DNA of 64,000 nucleotides, from positions 18,660 to 82,659 of IMG/VR virus record IMGVR_UViG_3300027779_002770. One strand, written 5' to 3'. The notes beneath the pieces are model-generated. The model ran no database searches, was not told the origin of the DNA, and saw only the letters and a list, made by a program, of their open reading frames with translations. The translations under genes and the position numbers were made by a program. This DNA comes from a virus. Positions 18,567 through 54,319 of the stretch are shown piece by piece (positions within the stretch are counted from its first letter, which is position 1; each line of letters opens with the position of its first letter).

Positions 18567-20045
18567 ATGCTTAAGCTAGGTGACGTTCGTAATGGATACG
18601 AAGTTCTCCCGCATAACAAAAGAAAAACAGTCCTGCTATTAAGTGACGATTTAAGAATGACGTCAGGTGTCGGGAATATGTCAAGAGAATTTGTTATGGG
18701 AACTTTGCATCAAATTAATTGGATTCAAATTGGTGGTGCAATAAACCATCCAGACGCTGATAAGGCGATAGACATGAATGAAGATGTGCAAAAAAGAACT
18801 GGAATTGAAGACGCATATTTAAAAATACATCCAGTAAATGGTTATGGAAACCAAGAGATTGTTCGACAATGTCTAAATTTTTATAAACCTGATGCAATCA
18901 TGATCTATACAGATCCAAGATTCTGGGGATGGTTGTTCCAAATGGAAAATGAAATACGTCAAAATCTGCCTATTTTTTATTACAATATATGGGATGATCT
19001 TCCGTACCCGATGTGGAACCAAAAATATTATGATTCTGTAGATGCATTATTTAATATATCACGACAAAGTGTTAATATTGTAAAGCAAGTAAGATCATCA
19101 TACGAAGATTGGCAAGCAACATACATTCCGCATGGTATCAATGAAGATGATTTTTTTCCATTACCTAAGAAATATGAGAAACAAAAAGAATACGAAGAAT
19201 TTAAAAAAGATGCATTGCAACACAGTAAAAAAGATTTTGTACTTTTCTATAATGCTAGAAATATTAGAAGGAAATTACCAGCAGATATTGTTTATGCGTA
19301 TAGAACATTTTGTGATTCTATTCCAAAAGAAGATGCTGCTAGGTGTTTATTATTAATGCATTGTGCACCAGCAGATGAAAATGGAACTGATCTTCCTGAA
19401 GTTGTAGCAAATTTATGCCCTGATTATTCTGTTGGCTTCTCTTCCGGAAAGCTTGAAAGAGAACAAATGAATTGGTTATATAATTTATCAGATTGTTCGA
19501 TACTAATAAGTTCTAATGAAGGATTTGGCTTAATGGGTGCAGAATCATTAATTACTGGCACGCCATTAATTGTAAATGTTTCAGGCGGAATGCAAGATTA
19601 TTGTGGATTTAAAAAAGAAAACGGAGAGTATCTAACAGTTGATGATTACACTCTAGAGTGGGGATCAAATCATGATGGACGATATAAGGATCACGGTGAG
19701 TGGGTATTTCCTGTATATCCAATGTCGCGATCAATTCAGGGCTCAATACCAACTCCATATATTTCTGATGATAGACCTGATTGGCAAGATGTTGCAATAC
19801 AAATTAAAAAAGCATGGTCTATGAGAGGTAAGAAATTACAAGAAGCAGGTATGAAAGGAAGAGAATTTATTCTTGATCCGGAAATAGGAATGACATCATC
19901 AGAAATGTGTAGAAGGTTTGTACATGATATGCATCAAGTATGGGAAAACTGGAAACCAAGAGCAAGAATGACAATAGATAATGCTACATTATGGAATCCA
20001 AGAAAGATAAAATTTAACGGTCTAACATTAAACAAGGAGATATAA
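18567..20045 (+). CDS. GT-B glycosyltransferase (GT4-like)
   Basis: 492-residue retaining GT-B enzyme. The N-terminal VLLLSDDLRMTSGVGNMSREFV resembles acceptor-domain starts of GT4 proteins, and the C-terminal SNEGFGLMGAESLITGTPLIV carries the EGFG...E nucleotide-sugar motif. Phage-encoded GT4 enzymes modify virion glycans, host surface glycans or DNA; the cluster context favours glycan. It begins one base after the upstream stop codon. Confidence 0.85.
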   Translation: MLKLGDVRNGYEVLPHNKRKTVLLLSDDLRMTSGVGNMSREFVMGTLHQINWIQIGGAINHPDADKAIDMNEDVQKRTGIEDAYLKIHPVNGYGNQEIVRQCLNFYKPDAIMIYTDPRFWGWLFQMENEIRQNLPIFYYNIWDDLPYPMWNQKYYDSVDALFNISRQSVNIVKQVRSSYEDWQATYIPHGINEDDFFPLPKKYEKQKEYEEFKKDALQHSKKDFVLFYNARNIRRKLPADIVYAYRTFCDSIPKEDAARCLLLMHCAPADENGTDLPEVVANLCPDYSVGFSSGKLEREQMNWLYNLSDCSILISSNEGFGLMGAESLITGTPLIVNVSGGMQDYCGFKKENGEYLTVDDYTLEWGSNHDGRYKDHGEWVFPVYPMSRSIQGSIPTPYISDDRPDWQDVAIQIKKAWSMRGKKLQEAGMKGREFILDPEIGMTSSEMCRRFVHDMHQVWENWKPRARMTIDNATLWNPRKIKFNGLTLNKEI

Positions 20046-35645: not shown

Positions 35646-35679
35646 ATAGGCAGTTGACGCACCTATAGAAAAATGCGTC
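35646..35679 (+). promoter_or_regulatory. Candidate H-type pseudoknot leader of the TonB receptor gene
   Basis: Stem 1 pairs ATAGG (35646-35650) with CCTAT (35662-35666). Stem 2 pairs GACGCA (35656-35661), lying in the stem-1 loop directly before its 3' strand, with TGCGTC (35674-35679). Loop 1 is CAGTT and loop 3 is A-rich AGAAAAA. The Shine-Dalgarno AAGGAG and the ATG (35709) lie 16 and 30 nt downstream. The layout is that of small pseudoknot riboswitches or autoregulatory leaders. The ligand is unknown. Confidence 0.5.
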
Positions 35680-35708
35680 TTAAACGTAATAACAAAAGGA
35701 GAACGTTT

Positions 35709-38477
35709 ATGAATAAGCGTAACCTAGTAATATCATTATTAATGATGACAGGATTGTTCGCGCAATCTATTGTTGGAGTTGTTAATAGTGGTACTGAACC
35801 ATTGATTGGAGCAAATGTTGCTGTCGAAGGAACTGACAAAGGTGGTGTAACAGATGAATCTGGTAAATACACTATCGATGTTGGGGCTGAAGGCACATTC
35901 ACATTGACAGCTTCATTCATTGGGTACTCATCTGCAACATTAGATGTTGTGGTGGGTGATATAGTTGGAACACTCAACTTCAATTTAGAAGAAGATGTTC
36001 TAATTATGTCAGCATTAGAAGTCTTGGCTTCTAGAGCTGATGAAAATACACCTGTTGCACACACTACAGTTGGCAAAGCCGAAATGGAAATGCGTCTTGG
36101 ATCTCAAGACCTTCCAATGGCACTTAACATGACGCCAAGTGTGTATGCAACTCAACAAGGCGGCGGCGCAGGTGATGCACGTATCAATGTTCGTGGGTTC
36201 AACCAGAATAACGTAGCTGTTATGATAAATGGTGTTCCGCAAAATGATATGGAGAACGGATGGGTCTACTGGTCTAACTGGGATGGTGTAGCTGATGCTG
36301 CTCATTCTATTCAGATGCAAAGAGGATTAAGTGCAGTTAACTTAGCAACACCCTCAATTGGTGGAACGATGAACATCATTACAGATCCTGCTGCTTATGA
36401 AAAAGGCGGCAAGGTAAAACAAGAAGGTGGTGCAGGTGGTTTTTTAAAGACTACACTTAACTACAATTCTGGTCTTATGATGGGCGACAAGTTAGCTTTA
36501 AGCGGAACAGTCGTGCGCAAGACAGGTGATGGAATCATTGATGGTACTTGGACAGATGCATGGGCATACTATTTTGGTAGTAGCTATGCAATGAATAATG
36601 ATCATCGCTTTGAGTTGTATGCAATAGGTGCACCGCAACGTCATGGACATAACTTATACAAACAGAACATAGCTACATATTCACAAGAATTGGCTGGTGA
36701 TGTTAGTGGCTACGATGTAGCGGCTTTTGCAGATAGTGCAAAATTCGAAACTGAAGCTGGTAGGTTATTCAATCAAAATGTTGCAAATGTCGACGCATCA
36801 TACACTGGAAAACAGTACTACTATATGTACGGTGAAAATACTGTTGACAGACATGATCCCAATTCTCTAAACGAAAGAGAGAATTATTTTCATAAACCGC
36901 TTGTTAACTTAAACCATTTCTGGACAATAAACGATAAGGCACGATTAAGTTCAGTAGCTTATTGGTCCGGCGGATCTGGTGGAGGTACTGGTACTTATGG
37001 AAGCGTTAAACGATTCGTTGCCGCAGGTGCTTCAGATCAAGATTTATCTTGGTACAAGAGCTCTCCGTGGACTTGGGATTGGAATGGCGAAATTGCTGAA
37101 AACTCAGCAAACGTTGATTCAGCCTGGTCAGACACAGAGAACAGATCAACGGGTATTCTTCGTAATAGTATCAATCGTCAAAATACTTACGGCTTGATTT
37201 CTAAACTTAACTATGACATTAGTGATGAGTTTGAAGTTCAAGTTGGTATTGATTGGAGAACTGCTAGTATAGAACACGCACGTGAAGTTCGTGATCTACT
37301 CGGTGGTGACTACTATGTAGATTATGCTGATGACAATACACCTGATGGTAAAGTAGTTAAGTTAGGTGATGAGATCGCTTATCACTATGATACTTCAGTT
37401 GATTGGTTTGGTACATTTGCGCAAGGTAAGTATACCACTGATAAGTTTAATGTGTATGGTATGGGCGGTTTGTCCACAATCGCATACTCTTATGAGGACC
37501 ATTTTGCAGCAGATACTGATTCTCTTGGTGAAACAATCGACAACTATGACGAAGCTGATGCTATCACTACTTTTCAATTGAAAGGTGGCGGTACCTATAA
37601 CTTGGATGATCGTATGTCTGTATTTGCTAATGCTGGATACGTTCAAAAACCACCAATTATGGATAATGTAATTGGCTCCGGGTATGTATCATCAGATCCA
37701 GATAATGAGAAGTTTAAAAGCTTTGAGTTAGGTGGAAAGTACAACAGCGACTTGGTTAGCATTAAGTTGAGCACGTATGCTACACAATGGATTGATAGAA
37801 ACGTTGTTAAAAATGTATCTACTGGACAAGGTGATAGCGGTGATTCAGACATAATTTTCTTACGCGGTGTACAACAAGATCATTCAGGCTTTGAAGTCGA
37901 AAGCAAAATCGCACTTCATGAAATGGTTGATCTAGATCTTGTAATCAGTAAGGGAAAATGGGAATTTGTTGGTGACGCAGATGGTTCGTATAAAGAGCAG
38001 GAGTTTAATGAAGCAGACGAAGTCATTGGTATGACATCAACTGAGTATTCTTATGCACTTAACGGGCTTATGGTTGGCGATCAACCACAAACATCATATG
38101 CCGGCGGATTAACAGTTAAACCAATTAAGGGACTCAACATACAGGGTATTTACAAAATGTATGATGACAACTACGCTGATTGGTCTCCCGATTCTCGTGA
38201 GATTGGTAGTGATGACTACAATGATGCTCCAGTTTGGCAAGCTCCTAAGTATGGAAGATTAGATATTCATGCTTCATACAAGCTGCCAGAAGTTGCTGGG
38301 CTAGATGTAACAGTATCAGCACATATTTTCAATGCACTTGATGAAGTATACATTCAAGATGCAGTTGATAATAGTCAATACAATGGGTTTGGTGATGGAA
38401 ATCACTTGGCTCATAACGCGGAAGTATTTCTTGGGACACCAAGATATGCTAACGTAGGAATTTCAGTTAATTTCTAA
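35709..38477 (+). CDS. TonB-dependent outer-membrane receptor
   Basis: 922 residues from ATG 35709, chosen for AAAGGAG upstream and an N-terminal signal peptide (KRNLVISLLMMTGLFAQS). Residues about 20-100 form a carboxypeptidase-regulatory-like beta domain, then a plug domain with DARINVRGFNQNNVAVMINGVPQND and GGTMNIITDP. The rest has the alternating pattern of a 22-strand barrel and ends in the terminal Phe of VGISVNF. It should import a siderophore, vitamin or glycan across the outer membrane with host TonB. Such genes are normally bacterial; here it sits on one strand with phage genes. Confidence 0.93.
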   Translation: MNKRNLVISLLMMTGLFAQSIVGVVNSGTEPLIGANVAVEGTDKGGVTDESGKYTIDVGAEGTFTLTASFIGYSSATLDVVVGDIVGTLNFNLEEDVLIMSALEVLASRADENTPVAHTTVGKAEMEMRLGSQDLPMALNMTPSVYATQQGGGAGDARINVRGFNQNNVAVMINGVPQNDMENGWVYWSNWDGVADAAHSIQMQRGLSAVNLATPSIGGTMNIITDPAAYEKGGKVKQEGGAGGFLKTTLNYNSGLMMGDKLALSGTVVRKTGDGIIDGTWTDAWAYYFGSSYAMNNDHRFELYAIGAPQRHGHNLYKQNIATYSQELAGDVSGYDVAAFADSAKFETEAGRLFNQNVANVDASYTGKQYYYMYGENTVDRHDPNSLNERENYFHKPLVNLNHFWTINDKARLSSVAYWSGGSGGGTGTYGSVKRFVAAGASDQDLSWYKSSPWTWDWNGEIAENSANVDSAWSDTENRSTGILRNSINRQNTYGLISKLNYDISDEFEVQVGIDWRTASIEHAREVRDLLGGDYYVDYADDNTPDGKVVKLGDEIAYHYDTSVDWFGTFAQGKYTTDKFNVYGMGGLSTIAYSYEDHFAADTDSLGETIDNYDEADAITTFQLKGGGTYNLDDRMSVFANAGYVQKPPIMDNVIGSGYVSSDPDNEKFKSFELGGKYNSDLVSIKLSTYATQWIDRNVVKNVSTGQGDSGDSDIIFLRGVQQDHSGFEVESKIALHEMVDLDLVISKGKWEFVGDADGSYKEQEFNEADEVIGMTSTEYSYALNGLMVGDQPQTSYAGGLTVKPIKGLNIQGIYKMYDDNYADWSPDSREIGSDDYNDAPVWQAPKYGRLDIHASYKLPEVAGLDVTVSAHIFNALDEVYIQDAVDNSQYNGFGDGNHLAHNAEVFLGTPRYANVGISVNF

Positions 38478-38583: not shown

Positions 38584-39288
38584 ATGAAAATTATAGCAGG
38601 ACCATGCGCAATAGAAGGCAGAGAAATGGCCTTCATAACAGCAGAACAAGTTGTACTACAACAGGAAATATTCCCATATTTTGATTTTGTGTATAAGTCA
38701 TCGTATGATAAAGCAAATCGTACAAGCATCAATTCAAAACGTGGAATAGGGCTTGATGAAGGACTCAAAATACTTCAAGAAGTTAAAGATAATTTTGGCC
38801 TTAAGCTCACAACTGATGTACACGAAACATATCAAGTAGAAGCTGTTGCTGAAGTAGTAGACGAAATCCAAATTCCAGCACTATTAAGTAGACAGACAGA
38901 TTTAATACGTGCAGCTGCAGATACTGGAAAATATGTTAATATAAAACGATCTCAATCAGCATCAGGAATGGACGCAAATACGATGATTGAAAAGTGTTGG
39001 CCGAATACAAAAGTACAGATGATTGAAAGAGGAAGTTCAGTTTTAAATGATATAGTTATAGACTGGAGAAATGTAATTGATATGATGAATTTCGATTGTA
39101 AAGTCATAGTGGATATTACTCATCCTCACGGCCCAACATACGCAACTCAATACGCAATGATGGCAGAATCTATAGGCTGTGATGGTTTATTTATGGAAGT
39201 TCATCCCGATCCGTTAAACGGACATTCTGATGGAAGTAAAATGATAGATTTTAAACAATTTTCTGAAATACTTAACACTGTAGCATAG
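38584..39288 (+). CDS. kdsA: 3-deoxy-D-manno-octulosonate 8-phosphate synthase (KdsA-like)
   Basis: 234 residues of the DAHP/Kdo8P synthase TIM-barrel fold. IAGPCAIEG (Cys8), FVYKSSYDKANRTSINSKRGIGLDEG, TTDVHETYQ, IPALLSRQTDLIRAAA and MEVHPDPLNGHSDGSK match Kdo8P synthase landmarks. The Cys of AGPC suggests the metal-dependent class. It condenses arabinose-5-phosphate with phosphoenolpyruvate. It is shorter than the usual 280 residues, mainly at the ends. Kdo or a related sugar could feed the cytidylyltransferase at 29171. Confidence 0.85.
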   Translation: MKIIAGPCAIEGREMAFITAEQVVLQQEIFPYFDFVYKSSYDKANRTSINSKRGIGLDEGLKILQEVKDNFGLKLTTDVHETYQVEAVAEVVDEIQIPALLSRQTDLIRAAADTGKYVNIKRSQSASGMDANTMIEKCWPNTKVQMIERGSSVLNDIVIDWRNVIDMMNFDCKVIVDITHPHGPTYATQYAMMAESIGCDGLFMEVHPDPLNGHSDGSKMIDFKQFSEILNTVA

Positions 39289-41844: not shown

Positions 41845-42098
41845 AGTATGTGTTAGTGGATAATCATGACAATATCGTCCACACAGTTAGCTTACCTACT
41901 GAATATACTCAAGAAGAAGCACGATTATATTTTTTAAATTTAAAAAAAATAGATGACAAGTCCTTTGATGAGTTGTGGAAAGTTCATTCTTCAGAAGAAT
42001 GGAAAAATATTCAACATGCTCACCAAAGACCTCCATCATCATCTCCAAACAGGGATTGGTGGAAAGAAGAAGAGCCATGGTTAGATTTAGAAAAATGA
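41841..42098 (+). CDS. Small unknown protein, 85 aa
   Basis: Starts at an ATGA overlap after GAGGA. N-terminal strand/helix (YVLVDNHDNIVHTVSL). Its TGA overlaps the ATG of the thiol-redox selenoprotein candidate. Confidence 0.5.
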   Translation: MKYVLVDNHDNIVHTVSLPTEYTQEEARLYFLNLKKIDDKSFDELWKVHSSEEWKNIQHAHQRPPSSSPNRDWWKEEEPWLDLEK

Positions 42099-42985
42099 TG
42101 AAAACATTTATAAGAAAACTCATATTTTGGTTTTGTATTTGTACAACATTTGTAGATGCTCAAACCTACACAGTAGGTGATATTGTAGATAATTTTGGTG
42201 CAGAGGCATGTGTTAACGGAGAAGGTTACTGGGATTACGATACAGATGGTTTAAACAAAATTGTATGGTTAAACTTATTCACATCATGGTGACCAAGTTG
42301 TCAAGCGGAGGCTCCGTTGTCAGAATTTATTCACCAATCATATCAAGACTTACCAGTAACAGTAATAGCCGCCGGAAGTGATTGGTCAACTTATAGTTGT
42401 GAGGGATGGGCAAATGCATTTGGAATAACGTATCCGATATTGGATGATGATGTTGGTACTATCTATCCCTTGTTTGGAACTGGATACATACCACACAATA
42501 TTGTAATCGATGGAAGCGGTGTAGTTTTATATTCCCAATCAGGTTTTAATCAAGATGCCATTCTTGCTGCAATACAAGAGGGATTATCTTATCTTGAAGT
42601 GGATACTGATAGTGATGGTCTATTAGATGAGTACGATAATTGTCCAGAAGATTACAACCCGAACCAAGATGATATTGATAATGATGGAGATGGAGATGCT
42701 TGTGATCAATGTAATAACTTAATATTTACTGGTGGTAATATTGATGGTAACGAAAGTATAGATATAATAGATGTACTAATGTTAGTAGATGTTATTTTAG
42801 GTGAGAATGAATATATTTGTTCATTCGAGGCGGGTGATATAACACAAGACGGATTTTTAAATGTTATGGATGTTATAGGTTTAATTCAAATAATAATGGG
42901 TAGTACTGAATCTCAAGCGATGATATGGATAGAAAAGAGCTTCGAATACATCCCAATGAACACAATCACTATTGATACACTTTGA
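42095..42985 (+). CDS. Probable secreted selenoprotein: TlpA-like redoxin with TSP3 and dockerin domains
   Basis: An in-frame TGA at 42290-42292 splits two open segments that together make one protein of 296 residues. Residues 1-22 are a signal peptide. Residues about 23-165 are a thioredoxin-like TlpA/redoxin domain. Its active site reads FTSW-TGA-PSC (residue 66 TGA, residue 69 Cys), which is the WCxxC motif of TlpA with the first Cys replaced by a TGA codon, as expected if selenocysteine is inserted. Residues about 170-210 are a thrombospondin-type-3 repeat (DTDSDG, DIDNDGDGDACD). Residues about 214-272 are a type I dockerin-like repeat pair. The protein would act in the periplasm or outside. 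A nonsense mutation or sequencing error cannot be ruled out. The terminal stop is also TGA. Confidence 0.75.
42298..42323 (+). promoter_or_regulatory. SECIS-like hairpin downstream of in-frame TGA
   Basis: Pairs 298-300 with 321-323, 302-304 with 317-319 and 306-309 with 313-316 (last three digits of 42 kb positions), giving ten base pairs with one U.U mismatch and one bulged G, and an apical GGC loop beginning with G. The loop starts 17 nt after the TGA. Bacterial SECIS elements have a loop with a G in its first two positions about 16-37 nt from the UGA. No equivalent hairpin was noted behind the final TGA. Confidence 0.55.
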
Positions 42986-43177: not shown

Positions 43178-43834
43178 ATGTTTAACAATTTAATGAAAAA
43201 AATAAAGAATAACAGAGGTAATTCACTTGCTGAATTCGCTGTTGTTACTGCAATGATGGCTACGATGGCTACTACTGCCGCCCCAAAATTTGGTGCTGTT
43301 GGTGATTCTGCTAAATCTAAAACATCAATTGCTAATCTAGATAAAATCAAGTCTGCAGCTAATAACTTTTATAACGCTGCTGTGTCTGAAGAAGGTCGTG
43401 GAAGATTTCCAGGACAAACTAAGTATGATGTAAAAGTTGGTGGATTTGATTTACCTGCTGAGACTACTACGGATATGGCATTGGAATTGTATTTAGAAAC
43501 TATTCTAAATTCTTATGAAGGATATGAAGCTGACTTAACTGATTTCGTATATGTATTCTCAACTTCAATAACTGATGAAGATGCTCTACAAGGTGATTGG
43601 ATGAGTGTTGATAATGATGGTGCACACCAGATAGATGCTGGATTTGATGAAGATGGTGCTTTAGATTTCAAAGAAAACTTTGGTAACTCAGGTATCTCAT
43701 CTCCGTTTCAGGATGGTGCTTACATCTATCTTGTTATACCAGGAAGTGGTAGTGGTTCAGACGCTCAAGCTCCTTGTATGATTATAGCAGATGCTGAGAA
43801 TCCTGCTGAAATGTACAAAGTATTAACACCTTAA
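43178..43834 (+). CDS. Type IV pilin-like protein with divergent head
   Basis: 218 residues. NNRG|NSLAEFAVVTAMMATMATTAAPKF has the prepilin-peptidase Gly, Glu at position 5 of the mature chain and a hydrophobic helix, although the first mature residue is Asn instead of Phe or Tyr. The globular part is acidic (FDEDGALDFKENF). AAAGGAGAAG precedes the ATG. First gene of a four-pilin run. It could be a major or minor pilin. Confidence 0.75.
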   Translation: MFNNLMKKIKNNRGNSLAEFAVVTAMMATMATTAAPKFGAVGDSAKSKTSIANLDKIKSAANNFYNAAVSEEGRGRFPGQTKYDVKVGGFDLPAETTTDMALELYLETILNSYEGYEADLTDFVYVFSTSITDEDALQGDWMSVDNDGAHQIDAGFDEDGALDFKENFGNSGISSPFQDGAYIYLVIPGSGSGSDAQAPCMIIADAENPAEMYKVLTP

Positions 43835-43855
43835 TTTTGTGAAAGGAGAATGACA

Positions 43856-44281
43856 ATGAGAAATAACAAAGGATTTACCCTTATTGAATTAATAATGGTT
43901 ACAATCATATTAGGTATTCTTGCTGCTGTCGCTATCCCTCGGTACATGACAACAGTTGCTAAAGCCGAATCGGCTGCAGAAAATGCAGTAATAGGTTCTA
44001 TATTGGCTGGTTTAGAAGTCTTTGCTACAGAACAATTGATGGATAATGGTCGAAGATCATGGCCTGATAATCCATTTGACGGTTTGGACACAAAGCCAAA
44101 TGGTTACACTACAGATGCAACTGATGCTAATGTTGACGGGGAGTGGACATTTAATACCACTTCACTAAAAATTACACATCAACGTCTTGATAATTCACGT
44201 GTTGGCTGGGTTTATGCTAAAGGCACACAAACAGGAGATGCTGCTAACGTGGGTACTCTCGGTGCTAGAGCAACTTTGTAG
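43856..44281 (+). CDS. Type IV pilin / type II pseudopilin
   Basis: 141 residues from ATG 43856 (AGGAG 7 nt upstream; 43850 is too close). NNKG|FTLIELIMVTIILGILAAVAIPRY is the classical class III signal with Glu5. The tail has DGLDTKPNGY and TTSLKITHQR. Needs a host prepilin peptidase and assembly ATPase, neither encoded in this window. Confidence 0.9.
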   Translation: MRNNKGFTLIELIMVTIILGILAAVAIPRYMTTVAKAESAAENAVIGSILAGLEVFATEQLMDNGRRSWPDNPFDGLDTKPNGYTTDATDANVDGEWTFNTTSLKITHQRLDNSRVGWVYAKGTQTGDAANVGTLGARATL

Positions 44282-44293
44282 AGGAGACTACTT

Positions 44294-44731
44294 ATGAATA
44301 ACTCTGCTGGATTCACTTTAGCGGAATTAGTCGTAACTATCGTATTGGTGGGGATACTTGCAGCAGCAGCTATCCCCACTTTTAATAATGTGATGGTATC
44401 AACTCAACTCCAAATAAACAAATCAAATATGGAAAGTATAAAGAATGCCTTTATGCGGTATTATTTTGTAACTCAAAATGATCCTCCACCAATACCAGAA
44501 AACCATTTGCTAGATTCAGAATACAAAGATTTAGTTTTACCTGACGGTAGAACACCCGATAATTTATTTAATGGTAAAGCTGGTTTACCTTATAATAGCA
44601 ATGGAGACCCTTATAGTTATTACCTAGAGAACGACACAAATTCCACAGGATTTGTAACACGGACAATAATAATAAAAGATATGAATACAGATAGCCCGTC
44701 ATACGAGGAATATGTAATCGGAGGGATTTAA
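44294..44731 (+). CDS. Type IV pilin / pseudopilin
   Basis: 145 residues. NNSAG|FTLAELVVTIVLVGILAAAAIPTF is a prepilin signal with Glu5. GAGGAGAC precedes the ATG. The globular region has LLDSEYKDLVLPDGRTPDNLF and ends EEYVIGGI. It abuts the next pilin gene. Confidence 0.9.
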   Translation: MNNSAGFTLAELVVTIVLVGILAAAAIPTFNNVMVSTQLQINKSNMESIKNAFMRYYFVTQNDPPPIPENHLLDSEYKDLVLPDGRTPDNLFNGKAGLPYNSNGDPYSYYLENDTNSTGFVTRTIIIKDMNTDSPSYEEYVIGGI

Positions 44732-45126
44732 TGAACAGAGGATATACGCTGATCGAAATGGTCGTAGTTATTCTCATAATTGGTATTATGAGTGCAGTAG
44801 CAGTACCGAGATACCAAAGAATAATTGAATTAAAAGAATTAGAAGCTGAAACAGAATTTGTACATCAGATGTGGAAAGAATTAGAATTATATGCTGAAGA
44901 ACGATTTGTAGCAACAGGCACAGAGAGCTGGCCGGTAAATCCACTTTCTGTTTTAGGTCGCACAAGAGGTGTCATCGTTACTATGGACTTGGGAATACCC
45001 GATGAAGATAATGAATGGCAATTTGATGGAACTGACTTATTTCATAGGAGAAGGAACAATGAGACTTGGTATTTCAATTACACCCCTAGTAATTTTCATT
45101 TGTCTGAACTTCCAGTTAAGTTTTAG
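44731..45126 (+). CDS. Type IV pilin / pseudopilin
   Basis: 131 residues. MNRG|YTLIEMVVVILIIGIMSAVAVPRY gives a very short leader and Glu5. GGAGGG precedes the ATG, which overlaps the stop of the previous pilin gene. The globular part includes WKELELYAEERF and WQFDGTDLFHRRRNN. Confidence 0.9.
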   Translation: MNRGYTLIEMVVVILIIGIMSAVAVPRYQRIIELKELEAETEFVHQMWKELELYAEERFVATGTESWPVNPLSVLGRTRGVIVTMDLGIPDEDNEWQFDGTDLFHRRRNNETWYFNYTPSNFHLSELPVKF

Positions 45127-53415: not shown

Positions 53416-53549
53416 AGAATCTATTTATATTTGTATTCCCATTCTTAAGAACACCAACTGAGGAAGAGATGGAAGGATTTAAAGATTACATAATAATGTT
53501 CTATGAGTTTAGGTATGAGCTTATAAGTTTCGAGTTGGCATATGCATAA
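53412..53549 (+). CDS. Small protein, 45 aa
   Basis: ATGA overlap with the previous gene. Hydrophobic N-terminus (LFIFVFPFL) and an acidic remainder. Last coding unit before the non-coding RNA region. Confidence 0.45.
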   Translation: MKNLFIFVFPFLRTPTEEEMEGFKDYIIMFYEFRYELISFELAYA

Positions 53550-54037
53550 CATCACGCGCGACCCGGCCGAGGACACTGAACGCCGGCTGCCGCGCGCGAC
53601 GCGCGGCGCCGCCGAAATTTCTCACGTGCCCGAACTTTCCGGATCTAACAGTAATGAAGGCAAAGCGAGAGCTCTCATATCAGGTGACCTCCCCGCGGGG
53701 CGGGGGCCTAACGGCGATCCAACCAACCAGAGTAATAATGACAACTGGTTCCATGCATTTGCATGGACCTCAATGCGGATGTTGAACCCCCATTATCTCC
53801 ATGGAGATATAGATGGAAAAAACTGGATACACCGAGAGGGGCCAGAACTCTTGCAAGGGACATCCGCAAAAACATCGGCTAGCTCCGCAGGTAGTTATAT
53901 GGATGCCTTGAGACTGCAGACTCGCGTAAAGCGAGTCCAATATGACTCAACACCAGGATATAACGCGCCATCCCTTTGGGATGGCTGCTTAGTAAATCCT
54001 CGGAGCAGCCGATCCACATCTATTCACGAATTGATGT

Positions 54038-54108
54038 GCGAGTATCGTATAGCGGTAATACCCCAGCCTTCCAAGCTGGTGACGTCAGTTCGATTCTGTC
54101 TACTCGCT
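54038..54108 (+). tRNA. tRNA-Gly (anticodon UCC)
   Basis: Acceptor GCGAGTA pairs perfectly with TACTCGC. D arm GTAT/ATAC with AGCGGTA loop; anticodon arm CCAGC/GCTGG with TCC at 54070-54072; T loop TTCGATT. One T.T mismatch is seen in the T stem. Discriminator T, as usual for bacterial Gly tRNAs. CCA is not encoded. Confidence 0.9.
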
Positions 54109-54319
54109 CAAACTCCTATTCCAGGTAACCACTATAGCAATGGTCTACCGGACAGTAGACCTGCAGAGGCCTCCTATCATATGCTAACACCATAAGATAC
54201 TTTGCAGAGACATACTATATAATATAATACATGGGATAGGAGTAATTTGACTAAGTCATAGTCACAGTGACCATGCTAATGACCAAGGTACATGTATTCA
54301 CATGATACCAATAAACTAG

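Follow-up and report, generated by a model that had tools for sequence, protein, structure and literature searches.

The cellular UxxC "Redoxin family protein" and "UGC-containing TlpA disulfide reductase family protein" are known bacterial selenoproteins (PMC13188914), and selenoproteins were otherwise known from cells and two poxviruses. Phages go unmentioned in a 2026 review of prokaryotic selenoproteins, a marine survey attributes part of RNR II, plastocyanin, and Cu-Zn SOD to viruses and reports little or no such contribution in the remaining families it covered, and in the literature searched we found no report of a phage selenoprotein. Here, we describe a redoxin gene of the IMG/VR viral record IMGVR_UViG_3300027779_002770 (82,659 bases), of which we analyzed positions 18,660 to 82,659, a stretch of 64,000 nucleotides hereafter called the window. 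The gene resembles the bacterial redoxin/TlpA selenoproteins in its thioredoxin fold, its putative selenocysteine (Sec) at the first redox position, and a candidate Sec insertion sequence (SECIS) within the coding region; the known ones, however, are cellular, whereas this one lies on phage contigs. Its in-frame TGA is, with high confidence, decoded as Sec, and the gene is apparently the first from a bacterial virus with good support for encoding a selenoprotein.

The gene occupies 42095-42985 of the window (plus strand, as are all features below) and encodes 296 residues if the TGA at 42290-42292 is read as Sec (residue 66), with a TGA stop at 42983-42985. As an earlier note on this DNA had claimed, two open segments of one frame are separated by a lone TGA at the first redox position (W-TGA-P-S-C), giving the local reading ...WLNLFTSW-U-PSCQAEAPL... 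and the UxxC motif of the ResA/TlpA class as W-U-P-S-C. Relatives were obtained by protein search (two, then two more) and by scanning for the pattern W-TGA-P-x-C-x-x-E-x-P, which raised the count to 12 contigs including that of the window; a W-TGA-[GA]-P-C scan added five more. Each of the 17 IMG/VR viral contigs found to carry the gene has the TGA at this position, and all 17 have phage genes in common with one another. Some are near copies (G006/G007, G008/G009, and G010/G011, with L240 and L249 also close), which leaves about 13-14 distinct copies; eight relatives that were aligned share 51-66% redoxin identity with the window copy. When any TGN codon was allowed in FTSW-x-P-x-C, the family was recovered with TGA only and no viral Cys version was found. 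The frame is conserved on both sides of the TGA in an alignment of nine phage copies.

The same codon is also kept in the closest homologs from Marinimicrobia, and since it persists in these and in every viral homolog found, its presence is not due to chance. The earlier note had pointed to a column of Cys or Sec, and relatives do show TGA or Cys there. A first genome scan with a three-protein alignment gave no matches, and INPHARED phages yielded distant redoxins only. Among the 12 contigs scanned for further conserved genes of this kind, the redoxin alone has an in-frame TGA shared across contigs; the other candidates inspected were a gene junction or frames without clear coding signs.

A hairpin follows the UGA, with a 5-6 bp stem, a GGAGGCUCC core, and a GGC loop that starts 17 nt downstream. 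In the window this putative bacterial SECIS (bSECIS) core spans 42304-42318, its stem pairing 42304-42309 with 42313-42318 around the loop at 42310-42312; the GGC loop and its spacing agree with the earlier note, but the stem is shorter than the 10 bp given there. Published bSECIS limits are a loop of 3-9 nt, a stem of 4-16 bp, a G in the first two loop positions, a distance of 16-37 nt from the UGA, and a minimum free energy at or below -7.5 kcal/mol (PMC13188914). The hairpin is within these limits for loop, spacing, and stem; for energy the picture is mixed, with the window copy at -8.8 kcal/mol and three of nine phage copies outside the limit.

Comparison among 79 homologs from phages and Marinimicrobia, scored for a 4-bp core, reveals that the hairpin tracks the TGA codon: the complete core is present in 56 of 57 TGA genes vs none of 16 Cys genes (Fisher P = 3e-15, for sequences that are not independent). 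The stem also covaries, with 4 of 6 pairs changing on both sides among 41 sequences and a score above all 500 shuffles and all slid versions. GAG GCT is kept in all nine distinct phage copies tabulated, even though the Glu codon that these phages favor is GAA (0.73). A further phage copy (L250) is without GAG GCT and has an alternative 4-bp hairpin, whose loop likewise begins 17 nt after the UGA. Neither the Rfam SECIS_1 model nor a scan of the window against Rfam matched a SECIS, which is uninformative, as SECIS_1 is silent in control genomes too.

Redoxin-domain homologs are present in 150 of 245 Marinimicrobia genomes, the best of them with one TGA and the weaker ones with TGA, Cys, or other residues; identity of the Sec homologs reaches 59%. 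One Marinimicrobia homolog (L175, of genome G128) reads W-TGA-TGA-P-C at the redox site, which may be a double Sec or a fresh mutation. In a phylogenetic tree, the phage redoxins are nested among host Sec sequences, with six phages, that of the window included, in one clade (98/86), and supported branches force at least two changes between host and phage. The gene's wider spread among hosts suggests that transfer ran from host to phage. Its neighbors vary between phages, as expected of a cargo gene, and it is placed among phage genes on viral contigs while being nested among cellular homologs.

These phages are predicted to infect Marinimicrobia, a group of marine bacteria. Cellular relatives of the TonB receptor encoded by the window phage are almost exclusively from Candidatus Neomarinimicrobiota. 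Two other high-ranking matches derived from GTDB, L088 (Flavobacteriales) and L135 (Euryarchaeota), contain series of genes from this phage lineage and look like phage contigs that were binned wrongly. SelB is above the cut-off in 43 of the 50 Marinimicrobia genomes reached through relatives of the receptor, SelA is found in 13 of the 15 genomes holding the closest redoxins, and ARAGORN names a tRNA-Sec with anticodon TCA in seven. This suggests widespread use of Sec in Marinimicrobia, a phylum for which a previous survey recorded three SAR406 genomes with orphan SelD only. Neither SelB nor tRNA-Sec turned up in the 12 phage contigs; these contigs may be incomplete, and SelA was not among the search targets. 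Weak tRNA-Sec candidates in contigs G007 and G010 are tRNA-Gly, tRNA-Tyr, and tRNA-Ala according to ARAGORN.

As such, the phage-borne selenoprotein first proposed in the earlier note gains support from the conserved TGA, the hairpin that accompanies it, and the sel genes of the presumed host phylum, for which SelA, SelB, and tRNA-Sec had been named as the check to make. These comparisons show that the redox-position TGA is kept as a sense codon and has a SECIS hairpin after it, in phages whose likely hosts have SelA, SelB, and tRNA-Sec, and they give good support to the reading of the UGA as Sec. Several points weigh on the other side. The support for Sec decoding comes from sequence comparison, and the Marinimicrobia host is assigned from TonB receptor and redoxin similarity rather than by direct linkage. 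Three of nine phage copies (L007, L009, and L016) miss the -7.5 kcal/mol limit, with -5.8 to -6.7 kcal/mol in a 45-nt fold, and one TGA homolog, L178, is without the core. The folding energy of single hairpins is mostly unremarkable (z = -0.61 for the window); because such single-sequence z-scores are mostly not significant, the case for the SECIS is built on comparison.

Under Sec decoding, a tailed-phage lineage predicted to infect Marinimicrobia would carry a host-derived gene for an exported Sec thiol-disulfide oxidoreductase. Host SelB would bind the hairpin and bring Sec-tRNA to the UGA during infection; with host SelB and tRNA-Sec decoding the codon, the phage would be borrowing the selenium machinery of its host. 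The product may then be exported by the Sec pathway, and perhaps also by the type 9 secretion system (T9SS) in copies that have a sorting tail, and could serve at the cell envelope as a reductase that resembles ResA/TlpA and has Sec-Cys in its active site. There it might keep envelope or surface thiols reduced, or counter oxidants, during infection.

The domain layout is consistent with such a product. A signal-peptide-like N-terminus (MMKTFIRKLIFWFCICTTFVDA; 42095-42160), as judged from its residues, precedes a redoxin domain of the AhpC-TSA or ResA-TlpA thioredoxin type (42236-42532), which is recognized by Pfam (AhpC-TSA 3.9e-9, Redoxin 3.4e-8) and by a family profile compared with solved structures in the PDB (ResA 7e-15). 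The Pfam matches bear out the claim that the downstream segment finishes the thioredoxin fold. A predicted structure of moderate confidence (mean predicted local distance difference test [pLDDT] 68) has ResA-type proteins as best Foldseek matches, with a template modeling (TM) score of about 0.8 by target. The second redox residue, Cys69 of U-P-S-C (42299-42301), does not vary among the nine aligned phage copies, nor does the column of Pro133 (GYIPHN; 42491-42493), from the fold the likely cis-proline. The TSP3-like and dockerin-like C-terminal region (42599-42892) is weak in the window copy, with both matches under Pfam cut-offs; it is clearer in the relative L034, where Dockerin_1 and a T9SS tail are above cut-off, and in the family profile, which matches TSP3 structures at 1e-27. 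A T9SS sorting tail is present in 6 of the 9 aligned phage copies and missing from that of the window, whose C-terminus is shorter than in most relatives.

We hold the proposed role in envelope redox to be an evenly balanced proposition. Sec decoding could stand and the protein could instead serve the virion, the phage's own pilin-like proteins, or surface display or attachment; this is the main competing view of its role, though less likely than not. Pilin-like genes adjoin the redoxin gene in the window and in some relatives, the phage has a TonB receptor, and the TSP3, dockerin-like, and T9SS parts suggest surface display; yet the neighboring genes differ among contigs and thus point to no constant partner.

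Readings that dispense with Sec (recoded genome, two genes, sequencing error, and pseudogene) were rejected on the conserved TGA, the use of TGA as a stop, and the comparison of homologs. The frame is open across the TGA and stop recoding is known in some phages, so that TGA might be a sense codon for Trp genome-wide, or be read as Cys or Trp by suppression. This is very improbable: TGA ends 19 of 71 long open reading frames (ORFs) in the window's contig, as the earlier note had said of an ordinary stop in a genome that is not recoded, and it is used as a stop in all phages counted. Moreover, ARAGORN detected no UCA-anticodon tRNA in the phage contigs, homologs without the TGA mostly have Cys in its place and in no case Trp, and the hairpin accompanies TGA rather than Cys codons. 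Even less credence goes to two genes, with a short N-terminal peptide running to the TGA and a second gene starting downstream. Gene callers do break the frame at the TGA and start-like codons follow it, but these codons are differently placed from phage to phage, and the residues between the TGA and them are conserved, the second redox Cys included. A sequencing error, or a nonsense change in a decaying Cys-type gene, can practically be set aside because, although metagenome contigs may hold errors and the window copy is C-terminally short, the identical TGA recurs in 17 contigs, here standing in as independent contigs for reads, and in many host genomes, with the frame conserved on both sides.

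Several other features of these contigs were observed. The window's contig is that of a contractile-tail phage, with PHROGs matches to tail sheath, baseplate hub, UvsX, DnaB helicase, and ribonucleotide reductase. Four successive pilin-like genes (43178-45126) adjoin the selenoprotein gene, three of them with an N-terminal methylation motif over the Pfam cut-off, and several related phages have homologs. The full TonB-dependent receptor lies at 35673-38477 and is 81% identical to one in the related contig G010; it is followed by a tRNA-Ala and a DAHP synthetase I family gene (38584-39288), KdsA-like from its sequence, with a 74% identical gene in the same contig. An ORF of odd composition (53542-54195) overlaps a tRNA-Gly gene of the phage (54038-54109) and is unlikely to be a true protein gene. 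A transfer-messenger RNA (tmRNA) gene is predicted in the related phage contig G011 (L075, 13478-13885).

Taken together, we consider it likely that the gene represents the first selenoprotein family in bacterial viruses, a cargo that recurs in a lineage of phages with Marinimicrobia as predicted hosts and that has moved between phage and host more than once. It would tie phage biology partly to host selenium status and place a viral selenoenzyme in the envelope or, via the host T9SS, on the cell surface. It is an unusual kind of host dependence for a phage gene to be expressible only where the host has functional SelA, SelB, and tRNA-Sec, and the Sec requirement offers a sequence-based constraint on the hosts of uncultured viruses. 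Other phage selenoproteins may be overlooked, because standard gene-calling programs break their genes in two at the in-frame TGA.

Compared with known systems, the phage protein has the fold and active-site position of the ResA, TlpA, and CcmG thiol-disulfide oxidoreductases, which typically have Cys at that position, are without TSP3, dockerin-like, or T9SS parts, and are about 20% identical to it. The NCBIfam ResA-like WAxxUGC model matches the phage redoxin weakly, under its cut-off. An Omp28-related selenoprotein model (NF045500; GOS_C, marine metagenome) matches the TSP3/dockerin-like part through its C-terminal region (6e-28), at 98 bits vs the curated 200, and the match excludes the Sec-bearing redoxin domain. 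Basilisk-like Bacillus phages, in which a tRNA-Sec gene is predicted (PMC6145125), give another hint of phage Sec biology; they have the predicted tRNA alone, its significance unknown, whereas the phages described here have a selenoprotein gene and no tRNA-Sec that we could find. The glutathione peroxidases of molluscum contagiosum virus and fowlpox virus (PMC8310308) are alike in being virus-captured selenoprotein genes decoded by the host, but they differ in belonging to eukaryotic viruses, to another protein family, and to the eukaryotic SECIS system.
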